Source: Deltaproteobacteria bacterium RBG_13_61_14
Lineage (GTDB): Bacteria > RBG-13-61-14
Direction of reading: 5' to 3'
DNA: 5,548 bases
Assembly: GCA_001797815.1 (NCBI GenBank)
Contig: MGQK01000029.1
Coordinates: 303-5,850 of the forward strand
The position numbers and the translations under genes were made by a program. Under the pieces are notes generated by a model. It was not told the origin of the DNA, searched no databases, and saw nothing but the letters and a program-made list of their open reading frames with translations. Of this stretch, positions 1,955-5,548 are shown one piece after another; position 1 is the stretch's first letter; the number at the start of each line of letters is the position of its first letter.

Positions 1955-3760
1955 ATGAAAGAAACCCGGTTGTATCTTCCCTCGGAACGCGAAGACTTCC
2001 ACGCCTTCACCCCGGCCCGCAAGGTGGTGCGGGACATCATTTTCTCCACCGACCGGCGCGACTTCGGCTGGATCAAGGAAAACATCCCCTGCCAAAGGGC
2101 CTGTCCCGCCTCTACCAACATCCCGGGTTACATCCGCTGCATTTTTGAGGAACGCCACGGCCGGTCCTACGAGCTGAACCGCTTCGTCAACATCCTGCCC
2201 GGCGTGCTCGGCCGGATTTGCGCCCGTCCCTGCGAGCCGGCCTGCCGGCACGGCTTCCCCGACAACGGCGACCCGGTGGCCATCTGCCACCTCAAGCGGG
2301 TGGCCGCGGACTTTCGGCCGGAGGGGCATCGCCTCCAGGAACAGCTCTTTGCGCCCTCGGGCAAGAAGGTGGCGGTGATCGGCTCCGGCCCGGCCGGACT
2401 GGGCGCGGCCCACGACCTGGCCACCTTCGGGCACCAGGTCACCATGTATGAAGCGGAAAAAGAGCCGGGGGGCATGCTCCGTTACGGCATTCCCGAGTTC
2501 CGCCTGCCCCGGCCGCTCCTGGCCACGGAGATCGCCAACGTCCTGCGCCTGGGGGTGGACCTGCATCTCGGCGTCCGGGTCGGTCGCGACCTTGAGCTCG
2601 CCGAAATCCTGGACAAGCACGACGCGGTGATCCTCAGCGCCGGCGCCTACCGGCCCAACCGGCTGGGGATGCCGGGCGAGAACCTGCCGGGCGTTTACAC
2701 GGGGCTCGAGTTCATGATGCGGGTCAACGAGGGCGAGCGGCCCGAGATCGGGCAAAAGGTGCTGGTGGTGGGCGCCGGCTTCACCGCCATGGATTGCGCC
2801 CGTTCCTCCATCCGCCTGGGCGCTAAGCGGGTGCTCATCAACCTCCTCACCACCGAAGAGTTCCTCACCGTGGACCAGGAAGAAATCTTCCAGGTGAAAT
2901 ACGAAGGCGGCGAGTTCCGCGGCCTGGTCTCCATCCAAGAGGTCCTGGGCAAGGACAAGGTCCAAGGCGCCCGCTTCCAGCGCAACCGGTTGGGCGGCTG
3001 GACCGAGCGGGGCGAGCGGGAGGGGGTTCCGATCCCGGATTCCGATTTTTTTGACAGCGCCGACAGCGTGATCCTGGCCATCGGCCAGCGGCCGGACCCC
3101 TCGTTCCTCCACCTCGAGCTCGACCAGACCGAGCGGGGCTTTCTCCGCCTGAATCCTCAAACCGGGATGACCAGCCGCAACCGCCTCTTCATCGCCGGCG
3201 ACTTCGGAGCCGGCGCTTCCAACGTGATCTCCTGCATCGGCTCGGGCCGGCGGGCGGCCTGGGCGGTGGACCAATACCTGATGAGGCGGGAGCGCCGCAA
3301 GAACGTGGTCCGGTTCGAGTATATGCCCGAGACCCTGCGCGAGCGCAAGTGGGACTTCATCCCCCGCCAGCCCATGCCCACTCTGGAATTGCCTAACCGG
3401 CTGGCCGGCGCCGGCCAGAGCGAGGTGGAGACCGGCCTGGACCCGGACCCGGCCCGGGAAGAATCCAAGCGCTGTTACCTCTGCTACTTGCGCTTCGAGA
3501 TTGACGCGGCCCGCTGCATCTATTGCCGCTGGTGCATGGATGTCATGCCCAAAAACTGCATCAAGCTGGCGAAAGAAGTCGTGCGCCACCCCGACGGCTC
3601 CATCCAGAGCGTGGTGGAGACCGAGGACTGGAGCCAGGTGGCCGCGGTGGTGATTGACGGCAAGGAGTGCATCCGTTGCGGCAACTGCTTTAGGGTCTGC
3701 CCGGTCAAATGCATCGAGATCGTCAAGGTCGAGATGATGGAGCAGGACGTGGAGGCCTGA
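1955..3760 (+). CDS. GltD-like FAD oxidoreductase with C-terminal two-cluster ferredoxin-like domain
   Basis: A 601-residue cytoplasmic flavoprotein, probably carrying electrons between Fe-S clusters, FAD and the 2-oxoacid oxidoreductase encoded downstream. The N-terminal helical Fe-S region has IPCQRACPASTNIPGYI (44-60) and GRICARPCEPAC (86-97). The FAD Rossmann site is VAVIGSGPAGLGAA (139-152), followed by PGGMLRYGIPEFRLP (171-185), the usual GltD signature. A second dinucleotide fold begins VLVVGAGFTAMDCARSS (269-285), and the FAD-closing motif is LFIAGDFGAGASNVI (411-425). A C-terminal extension adds CYLC (507-510), CIYCRWC (521-527) and CIRCGNCFRVCP (572-583). GltD itself is about 450 residues, so the ferredoxin part is an added domain. 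ATG at 1955 has GGAG five bases upstream. Odd points: Met531 stands where the first cluster motif should have its fourth Cys, and the usual NADPH-binding YRR segment after the second Rossmann fold is absent. It is unlikely to be true glutamate synthase because no large subunit is nearby. Fold assignment is strong; partner and direction are inferred. Confidence 0.88.
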   Translation: MKETRLYLPSEREDFHAFTPARKVVRDIIFSTDRRDFGWIKENIPCQRACPASTNIPGYIRCIFEERHGRSYELNRFVNILPGVLGRICARPCEPACRHGFPDNGDPVAICHLKRVAADFRPEGHRLQEQLFAPSGKKVAVIGSGPAGLGAAHDLATFGHQVTMYEAEKEPGGMLRYGIPEFRLPRPLLATEIANVLRLGVDLHLGVRVGRDLELAEILDKHDAVILSAGAYRPNRLGMPGENLPGVYTGLEFMMRVNEGERPEIGQKVLVVGAGFTAMDCARSSIRLGAKRVLINLLTTEEFLTVDQEEIFQVKYEGGEFRGLVSIQEVLGKDKVQGARFQRNRLGGWTERGEREGVPIPDSDFFDSADSVILAIGQRPDPSFLHLELDQTERGFLRLNPQTGMTSRNRLFIAGDFGAGASNVISCIGSGRRAAWAVDQYLMRRERRKNVVRFEYMPETLRERKWDFIPRQPMPTLELPNRLAGAGQSEVETGLDPDPAREESKRCYLCYLRFEIDAARCIYCRWCMDVMPKNCIKLAKEVVRHPDGSIQSVVETEDWSQVAAVVIDGKECIRCGNCFRVCPVKCIEIVKVEMMEQDVEA

Positions 3761-4800
3761 TGGCGGAGCCCTTGCATTTCGTGATCGTGGGCAACGGTCC
3801 GGCCGGGAACGAGGCCGCGGCCGCGCTCCGCGGCCAGGATCCGAAAGCGCGGATTACCATCATCTCCGCGGCGGCGACCCACTACCTGCGGCCGGAGAAA
3901 CTGGCGGCTTTCCTGGTCCAGCCCCGGCACAGGCTCAAGGACCTCTATATCCATCCTTACCCCTGGTATGAAGAGCAGCGGATCCAGCTCCGGCTCAACC
4001 AGACGGTCAACCGGATCGCCCCGGAGCAGAAATACGTTTACCTCAACCACAAGGAGCGGGTCCGCTACGACCGCTTGCTCCTGGTCACCGGCGCCCGGCC
4101 CCGGGTCCCGGAGCGGCTGGCCTCCCTGAGCTCGCTCCTGACCCGCTTCGCCACCGGCGCCGACGCGCTCTTGCTCAAGCGCGGGATCGCCCAGGTGAAG
4201 CACATGACCATGCTCGGCGGCGACTGCATCGCGCTCGAGCTGGCCCAGGCCCTGCTGCCCCGGGGCGTGAGGCTGACCTTCATCCTGGATGAATATCGCT
4301 TCTGGCCCCTGGAGTTCGATGAGGGCGTGAAGAAGCGGCTGGCCGATTCCCTGGAAAAGAAGGGGATCGAGGTGGTCCGGGACGACCTGGCGGTTTCGGT
4401 GGAGCAGGCGGGCGACGAGCTTTTGGTCAAGACCCGCGGCGGCAAGGAGGTCAAGACCGACCGCGCCTGCTTGAGCTCGGGCATGGTTCCGGCCGTGGAA
4501 TTCCTGGCCTCCGCCGGGATTGACACCCAACTGGGGGTGTTGGTGGACGACCACTTGCAGACCAGTCGGCCCGACATCTGGGCCGCGGGCGAGTGCGCCC
4601 AGGTCTATTATTCCGAACTGAAAGATTACCGCTGCTCCACCGGCTCGGTCAATGCCGAGCAGCAAGGCCGGCTGGTCGCCCGGAACATGCTCGGGGCCAA
4701 AGAGATGGTGAAACTTCCGGAACCCGGCCGGGTGACCATTGCCGGCGAGCACTTCACCACCTATGGCTGGAAGGGATTCTCCTTGGATGAGAAAGATTGA
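3760..4800 (+). CDS. FAD-dependent pyridine-nucleotide-type oxidoreductase (NirB/PadH-like fold)
   Basis: A 346-residue soluble flavoprotein, probably the second flavin subunit or electron-entry/exit module of the 2-oxoacid oxidoreductase. The FAD site is FVIVGNGPAGNEAAAAL (7-23). HYLRPEKLAAFL (41-52) matches the YSRP-type segment of rubredoxin-reductase relatives, and YDRLLLVTGARP (103-114) is the ATG-type motif. The second Rossmann fold is MTMLGGDCIALELAQALL (149-166). DIWAAGECAQV (272-282) closes the FAD site with AGEC, as in NirB, instead of AGD. It has no CxxC or CxxxxC redox pair, so it is not a disulfide reductase. It is shorter than many relatives (about 400 residues). The second Rossmann glycines are altered (GGDCIA rather than GGGxxG), so tight NAD(P)H binding is uncertain. 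The start is the ATG at 3760, sharing its A with the preceding TGA and with GGAGG four bases upstream; a longer frame back to 3709 is an overlap artefact. Confidence 0.85.
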   Translation: MAEPLHFVIVGNGPAGNEAAAALRGQDPKARITIISAAATHYLRPEKLAAFLVQPRHRLKDLYIHPYPWYEEQRIQLRLNQTVNRIAPEQKYVYLNHKERVRYDRLLLVTGARPRVPERLASLSSLLTRFATGADALLLKRGIAQVKHMTMLGGDCIALELAQALLPRGVRLTFILDEYRFWPLEFDEGVKKRLADSLEKKGIEVVRDDLAVSVEQAGDELLVKTRGGKEVKTDRACLSSGMVPAVEFLASAGIDTQLGVLVDDHLQTSRPDIWAAGECAQVYYSELKDYRCSTGSVNAEQQGRLVARNMLGAKEMVKLPEPGRVTIAGEHFTTYGWKGFSLDEKD

Positions 4801-5548
4801 CCTCACCGTGGAAATCTGCGGCAGCGCCGGCGACGGCACCCTGGCCGCGGGAGAAATCCTGACCAACACCCTGGCCTTCCAGGGGTTCCACGTCCTTTCT
4901 TTCGACTCCTACCCGGCCGAGATCCGCGGCTTTGGCAAATGCGTGGCGCACACCCGGGTCTCGGACCAGCCCGCGCAGAGCCTGAGCGGCACCGTGGATA
5001 TCCTGATCTCCCTTCTCGATAGCTACTCGATCCAGCAGATCCCCACGCTCCAGCCGGAAGCCGTGGTCCTCTTTGATAACCAGCCCCTGGCCCCGGTGCT
5101 GGACGAGCCAAAGTGCATCGCCGGCCACCTGGGGCCGGGCATGATCCTTTACGGCGTGCCCTTCCACGAACTCTCCCAACAGGCCACCGCCTCGGGCCGC
5201 TCCCGCAACATCGTGGCCCTGGGCGCCTTCGCCGCCCTGTTCGAGATGAACCTCGAGAAGTTCAGCGAGAGCCTCCGGCAAAAGTTCAAGCGCAAGCCCC
5301 GGGTGGTGGACGAGGTGGCCGCGGCCTTCAACGCCGGGGTGGACTACGTGGCCGGCAATGTGCTCAAGCTGGATGAGTTCTCCTTCCGCCGGGATCAAGA
5401 GTCGGAGACCGCTGCCTACCAACTGCTCACCGGCAATGAAGCCGCGGCCCGGGGCGCGATTGACGCCGGGTGCAAGCTCTACGCCGGCTATCCGATCACG
5501 CCCACCACCAAGATCATGGAAATCCTGTCCGAGGAACTGCCCCGGCAC
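4787..5548 (+). CDS. 2-oxoacid:acceptor oxidoreductase, fused gamma-alpha subunit (3' end beyond window)
   Basis: Part of an enzyme that oxidatively decarboxylates a 2-oxoacid to its acyl-CoA or a related product with low-potential electron transfer. The 254 residues present hold a complete gamma (PorG/KorC-type) domain, about residues 1-190. Its marks are EICGSAGDGTLAAGEILTNTL (9-29), EIRGFGKCVAHTRVSD (45-60; commonly RGG) and RSRNIVALGAFAALFE (138-153). After a linker the alpha (KorA-type) domain begins with LLTGNEAAARGAIDAGCKLY (213-232) and AGYPITPTTKIMEILSEELP (233-252), the conserved YPITP segment. Complete fusions of this kind usually run to about 600 residues, so over half is missing. 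ATG at 4787 overlaps the previous gene by 14 bases; AAGGGA lies at 4771-4776, and an in-frame TTG at 4784 is an alternative start. A beta, thiamine-diphosphate-binding subunit should follow. Substrate (2-oxoglutarate, branched-chain, aryl or other) cannot be read from this part. Confidence 0.92.
   Translation, partial: MRKIDLTVEICGSAGDGTLAAGEILTNTLAFQGFHVLSFDSYPAEIRGFGKCVAHTRVSDQPAQSLSGTVDILISLLDSYSIQQIPTLQPEAVVLFDNQPLAPVLDEPKCIAGHLGPGMILYGVPFHELSQQATASGRSRNIVALGAFAALFEMNLEKFSESLRQKFKRKPRVVDEVAAAFNAGVDYVAGNVLKLDEFSFRRDQESETAAYQLLTGNEAAARGAIDAGCKLYAGYPITPTTKIMEILSEELPRH

Follow-up and report, generated by a model that had tools for sequence, protein, structure and literature searches.

The window, a stretch of 5,548 nucleotides from Deltaproteobacteria bacterium RBG_13_61_14 (contig C29, positions 303-5850), carries the beginning of a conserved four-gene operon. 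In the reading that we hold with moderate confidence, the operon would encode a four-subunit 2-oxoacid:acceptor oxidoreductase, probably acting on 2-oxoglutarate, in which the flavin of a GltD-like subunit probably passes electrons to NAD+ and a second flavin would serve as a relay or port rather than as an NAD site. Our literature searches, which left most subscription papers outside their reach, found no description of this four-gene enzyme.

Gene organization of the operon

Three genes lie in a row on the + strand of the window. The first (1955..3760) encodes a GltD-like iron-sulfur flavoprotein of 601 aa with the Pfam domains Fer4_20, Pyr_redox_2 and Fer4_10; the second (3760..4800) encodes the second flavoprotein, a short NirB-fold FAD protein of 346 aa (Pyr_redox_2, E 3.6e-40); and the third (4787..5548) is the 5' part of a fused gamma-alpha gene of the TIGR03710 type (POR, POR_N). 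The first two genes overlap by 1 base within the TGATG at 3758-3762, and the second and third by 14 bases, with the ATG at 4787 and the TGA at 4798-4800. The open reading frames, Pfam domains and coordinates thus confirm an earlier note on this DNA, which had described these three genes and their overlaps from the sequence alone.

Contig C29 is 5850 bases long and ends where the window ends, inside the gamma-alpha gene. The reading frame that opens at 4787 runs past 5548 and covers the POR (gamma) domain followed by the first 32 positions of POR_N (alpha), with the YPITP motif of the thiamine domain at 5489-5503 (+ strand). Another contig of the same genome, C132, opens inside the C-terminal half of alpha, and this gamma-alpha continuation (C132:1-762) is followed, with a 4-base overlap, by a beta gene (C132:759-1634). 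Relative to the complete homologue L042, the window corresponds to residues 1-297 and C132 to residues 382-631, which leaves ~84 codons, or roughly 250 bases, between the contigs. We infer that the two contigs adjoin because no other pair of interrupted genes among the POR_N matches of the genome fits together; through this link, the beta subunit that the earlier note had proposed to seek beyond the window is located behind the remainder of alpha. The interruption of the alpha gene by a contig boundary was counted against our preferred reading. Another candidate for the missing alpha piece, C24:736-858 (L011), was rejected as a short VorB-like fragment, probably the remnant of an oxidoreductase alpha subunit.

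The surroundings of the operon differ on its two sides. On the - strand of the window, positions 2-1479 encode a CheR methyltransferase and a HAMP-domain chemotaxis receptor, divergent from the operon and separated from it by a 475-base gap. On C132 (L010), past the beta gene and an MFS-transporter-like gene on the opposite strand, positions 3185-5898 encode a succinyl-CoA ligase-type acyl-CoA synthetase and a 4Fe-4S protein.

Conservation of the operon

Each of the 26 operons that were read has the order GltD, NirB-fold, gamma-alpha, beta, to the extent that its contigs cover it. This arrangement is more than chance, being conserved across several phyla with proteins that are roughly 26-61% identical to those of the window. 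Among 386 sampled genomes, the NirB-fold profile gave matches above 350 bits in nine, including the window's own, and the next tier reached at most 275 bits. Similarly, eight gamma-alpha matches in this sample exceeded 900 bits, all of them in genomes with the NirB-fold gene, and all others stayed at or below 620; the ninth genome with the NirB-fold gene is the window's own, where the gamma-alpha gene is split between contigs. Searches within phyla added further NirB-fold relatives, in 8 of the 9 genomes of one phylum and in 4 of the 8 of another; the phylum of the Desulfomonile MAG contributed 5 of 395 genomes, with a lower score in one, and that of the Aminicenantes MAG 4 of 347. Loci L045, L046 and L048 were added from a wider contig scan in which, among the matches listed, most were ordinary NAD-linked homologues.

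The association also holds when approached from either gene. Of the lower-scoring gamma-alpha loci, 22 were fetched. In 20 of them the operon lacks both flavoprotein genes; in the other two, a GltD gene of the type that accompanies 2-oxoglutarate:NADP+ oxidoreductase (KGOR) lies directly upstream, and the NirB-fold gene is missing from all 22 operons. The NirB-fold subunit of the four-gene clade was seen only within this operon, and a plasmid tblastn search with the NirB-fold protein as query (E 1e-30) returned no match. Two of the operons, L250 and L251, are followed ~1.2 kb downstream by a second, plain gamma-alpha gene (L250:10818-12554, L251:10957-12753), with a beta gene behind it where the stretch reaches.

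Catalytic subunits

The gamma-alpha fragment in the window scores 168 bits over 254 aa against TIGR03710 / OAFO_sf, a value for the fragment only, the rest being on C132; the complete gamma-alpha of L042 scores 559 against a cut-off of 482.75. The beta protein scores 266.9 against TIGR02177, above the cut-off of 261.9, and has TPP_enzyme_C and PFO_beta_C domains as well as the motifs CPGCG, GIGCVGR and GDGDG. Among solved structures, the best match to gamma-alpha is 6n2n (E 9.5e-103), which we take to be the 2-oxoglutarate:ferredoxin oxidoreductase of Magnetococcus marinus, likewise with fused gamma and alpha. To our knowledge, that enzyme has no flavoproteins and donates electrons to free ferredoxin.

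In the gamma-alpha tree, all sampled four-gene copies form one clade (99/98). The KGOR-type copies occupy a separate, distant branch (100/100), and plain ferredoxin-type enzymes also fall outside the four-gene clade. Given the four-gene order in every operon and this single clade, both flavoproteins would belong to the enzyme. The proposal of the earlier note that they are built into the oxidoreductase therefore stands: the three genes co-occur across genomes, and the NirB-fold subunit of this clade was seen in the operon in 26 of 26 cases rather than beside unrelated genes.

Three genomes of the Aminicenantes MAG's phylum (L262, L263 and L264) keep the four-gene order intact with a gamma-alpha on a very long branch, which amounts to 2.8 changes per site for L262 and L264. 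In these two, a pattern search did not find RGGPSTG, GIGCxGR or GDGDG. The GltD and NirB-fold subunits of all three genomes are still conserved, and their catalytic subunits may be repurposed or decaying. A transfer of the two-flavoprotein module onto another oxidoreductase in this phylum was considered and rejected, as the divergent gamma-alphas lie inside the four-gene clade.

The GltD-like subunit

The GltD-like protein consists of an N-terminal Fe-S domain, an FAD domain, an NAD(P)-type domain and a C-terminal 2[4Fe-4S] ferredoxin tail. Its closest curated model is PRK12771, matched below the cut-off. The AF2 model (pLDDT 77.8; all AF2 models here are single chains) finds its best PDB matches in Nfn/Stn chains, and the fold and domain order are those of the DsrL / NfnB family, with a C-terminal ferredoxin as in DsrL and a different partner enzyme. 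In other oxidoreductases of this class, the C-terminal 2[4Fe-4S] ferredoxin part is a separate subunit. Here it occupies 3470..3712 (+ strand; Pfam Fer4_10/Fer4_7; CX2CX2C...C and CX2CX2CX3CP), and its cysteines are invariant in alignment A6 except for the last, which is absent from the relative on plasmid 2 of Aromatoleum aromaticum EbN1.

The N-terminal Fe-S cysteines C46, C50, C89, C93, C97 and C111 (2090..2296, + strand) are also invariant in A6. The ligands in NfnB are C39, C42, C47 and C100 for the distal cluster and C51, C90, C96 and E117 for the proximal one (PMC7596348). Unlike the DsrL / NfnB family, the GltD-like subunit has no cysteines at the C39/C42 positions, and Cys111 lies near the position of the Glu117 ligand, three residues before a Lys that occupies it in a register set by eye. 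The EbN1 relative shares Cys111 and likewise lacks the distal-cluster cysteines.

The nicotinamide site (2771..2860, + strand) contains GAGFTA and, where YRR is expected, LLTTEE. Every four-gene copy has F or Y in GxG(F/Y)TA, at a position that is N in KGOR-type and Nfn proteins (GxGNTA); this unusual aromatic residue suggests that the GltD site may have been remodelled too. At the YRR position, the window has LLT, the KGOR-type proteins L240 and L242 have ARR and the EbN1 plasmid copy has VRS; some four-gene copies keep one Arg there, and L252 keeps two. Among DsrL enzymes, YRR is associated with NADP(H) and other residues in its place with NAD(H) (PMC7596348). By this rule, LLT makes NAD+ the likelier nicotinamide at the window's GltD, and the GltD FAD of the window's subtype probably serves NAD+ rather than NADP+. 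In one copy, an in-frame stop at L048:1949-1951 splits the GltD-like gene, which may reflect a sequencing error or decay.

The NirB-fold subunit and the two subtypes

The NirB-fold protein matches the NirB, PadH and HcaD models, in each case below the cut-off. Its AF2 model (pLDDT 90.6) has the fold of AIF, putidaredoxin reductase and CoA-disulfide reductase, and the protein is ~50-100 residues shorter than most of these relatives. The FAD-binding motif GNGPAG (3790..3807, + strand) is conserved in all operons. The NAD-binding loop is degenerate, reading LGGDCIALE at 4213..4239 (+ strand), with GGD for GxG: the second glycine is Asp in 23 of the 26 operons, including the window, and 116 of 121 NirB-fold homologues outside the operon have GxG. 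The GGD sequences also have FWPL, FWPI or FWPV behind the second strand of the NAD domain (FWPL at 4300..4311, + strand, in the window). As GGD leaves no canonical NAD site, the NirB-fold subunit of this subtype is unlikely to reduce NAD. The pathogenic variant G308E in the NAD domain of AIF (PMC8069373) was considered as an analogue of GGD and set aside, since the correspondence of the glycines was not established.

The remaining three operons, L046, L048 and L253, combine GxG in the NirB-fold subunit with YRR in GltD and constitute subtype 2. They are the sister group of the other four-gene copies in the gamma-alpha tree; the split is one event, so the association of GGD with loss of YRR counts as one evolutionary change and not as 26 independent ones.

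The next-closest short NirB-fold proteins adjoin either rubrerythrin-like genes (L176, L179, L181, L182) or an Fe-S protein and an aminotransferase-like gene (L177, L178, L180). Several of them have altered NAD motifs of their own (GGS, ARD, GRD).

Relation to described enzymes

NADH-dependent phenylglyoxylate dehydrogenase (PadEFGHI) combines a 2-oxoacid:acceptor core with a NirB-fold FAD subunit; its gamma, alpha and ferredoxin subunits are separate, and it has no GltD-like subunit. The operon of the window resembles Pad in joining an oxidoreductase core to a NirB-fold FAD subunit. Unlike Pad, its proteins miss the PadH (137 vs 475 bits) and PadE cut-offs, and its NirB-fold protein is shorter than PadH, with a degenerate NAD motif. 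The description of the operon as more elaborate than Pad proved correct, the pairing of two flavoproteins with a gamma-alpha fusion being conserved throughout the 26 operons.

The earlier note had also named Pad as an exception to simple ferredoxin reduction, and here a closer one replaces it. On the sequences compared, the three-gene type composed of GltD, gamma-alpha and beta is a nearer precedent than Pad. Its closest described member is the 2-oxoglutarate:NADP+ oxidoreductase of Azoarcus evansii (Ebenau-Jehle, Boll and Fuchs 2003, as cited in PMC10134865 and PMC8163825), and our comparison was made with its genomic relatives, namely EbN1 plasmid 2 (L044), L240 and L242. The EbN1 locus shares with the window's operon a GltD-like gene with a ferredoxin tail, fused gamma-alpha and beta, the first lying directly upstream of the others at EbN1. 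The four-gene operons differ from this type in the inserted NirB-fold gene, present in all of them, in the F/Y and LLT of the window-type GltD site (N in KGOR, plus ARR in L240/L242), and in a gamma-alpha outside the KGOR-type branch.

Proposed electron flow and alternatives

From family knowledge, gamma-alpha and beta would bind thiamine diphosphate, and a 2-oxoacid, most likely 2-oxoglutarate, would be oxidatively decarboxylated to an acyl-CoA at the alpha-beta site. The electrons would leave through the [4Fe-4S] cluster of beta, enter the ferredoxin tail of GltD and from there reach the GltD FAD; this tail would stand in for the delta subunit, a separate ferredoxin-like protein in other enzymes of this kind. 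In the window's subtype, this FAD would probably reduce NAD+, not NADP+. The NirB-fold protein would be an obligate second flavin subunit whose nicotinamide site has been remodelled in the window's subtype; there it would most likely serve as a relay or port for some partner besides NAD(P)H, or else in docking. We rank these roles above an NAD outlet like that of Pad and above bifurcation.

A tentative variant, to which we give a low probability, makes the second flavin of the main subtype a former NAD reductase that has become an outlet to a different carrier. Low-potential electrons from the 2-oxoacid would then be shared out between this carrier and NAD+, and both an NADP and an NAD site would persist in subtype 2.

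Somewhat more doubtful is the reading in which the NirB-fold subunit reduces NAD+, as in PadH and AorC, and GltD only relays electrons. In the Aromatoleum aldehyde oxidoreductase, AorC is the FAD subunit and the site of NAD+ reduction, fed by an Fe-S chain (PMC10413684). The NirB-fold subunit shares its fold family (8c0z_E is among the structure matches), it matches the PadH model at 137 bits, and GxG is kept in subtype 2. However, Asp replaces the second glycine in the main subtype, the window's included, the match falls short of the PadH cut-off of 475 bits, and the window protein, with no canonical NAD motif, lacks the length to include the helical C-terminal domain of AorC (PMC10413684).

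We consider it unlikely that the complex bifurcates or confurcates, by sending electrons of the 2-oxoacid through two flavins to two acceptors of unequal potential or by driving reductive carboxylation with NADH and a second donor. Two different flavoproteins with many Fe-S clusters would suit this scheme, the modelled GltD finds its nearest structures among subunits of Nfn and Stn, which bifurcate, and the YRR of GltD and the GxG of the NirB-fold subunit in subtype 2 are what an NADP/NAD pair would need. Yet the absence of counterparts to C39/C42 and the Lys at the Glu117 position, near Cys111, disfavour bifurcation of the Nfn type at the GltD flavin. Moreover, the potential of the 2-oxoacid suffices, so that an oxidative decarboxylase has no need of bifurcation, and the NirB-fold subunit of the window's subtype has lost the canonical NAD motif. 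The electron-bifurcating function suggested in the earlier note thus finds no support; of its electron channel through two flavins, the membership of the flavoproteins in the enzyme is retained, and bifurcation to two acceptors is not.

Equally improbable is a reductive direction, in which a 2-oxoacid synthase fed through the flavoproteins would fix CO2 onto an acyl-CoA. An aconitase neighbour and the reversibility of related 2-oxoglutarate:ferredoxin oxidoreductases in organisms with the reverse citric acid cycle, known generally, would fit, but reductive carboxylation calls for a stronger donor than NAD(P)H alone. We likewise give little credence to a structural or protective NirB-fold subunit (AIF-like docking, oxygen or thiol protection) outside the catalytic electron flow: the lost nicotinamide motif beside a retained FAD motif, and short relatives adjoining rubrerythrins or other Fe-S proteins, would agree with it, but the FAD site is kept in all operons and the gene is never absent where the clade occurs.

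Substrate

Within the preferred four-subunit scheme, 2-oxoglutarate is probably the substrate, a leading guess by analogy with 6n2n and from gene neighbours. Three loci of one phylum (L042, L169 and L171) have an aconitase gene immediately upstream, and in the Desulfomonile MAG a fumarase-type lyase follows immediately downstream, making four loci in all with a citric-acid-cycle neighbour. At least three of the genomes with the operon also encode 2-oxoglutarate enzymes of the conventional KorABC type, and a different 2-oxoacid may therefore be the substrate. OdhA is missing in 11 genomes that carry the operon; even so, the presence of KorABC sets led us to reject the four-gene enzyme as the sole 2-oxoglutarate enzyme of these genomes.

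Biological significance

In anaerobes, how much energy the oxidation of a 2-oxoacid yields is set by the electron acceptor. The two subtypes differ in both nicotinamide sites together, which makes the question of the acceptor directly testable. A conserved two-flavoprotein version of the enzyme, both in little-studied phyla and in bacteria of the Desulfomonile and Aminicenantes types, suggests a link between 2-oxoacid oxidation and the electron carriers of the cell that our searches did not find described.
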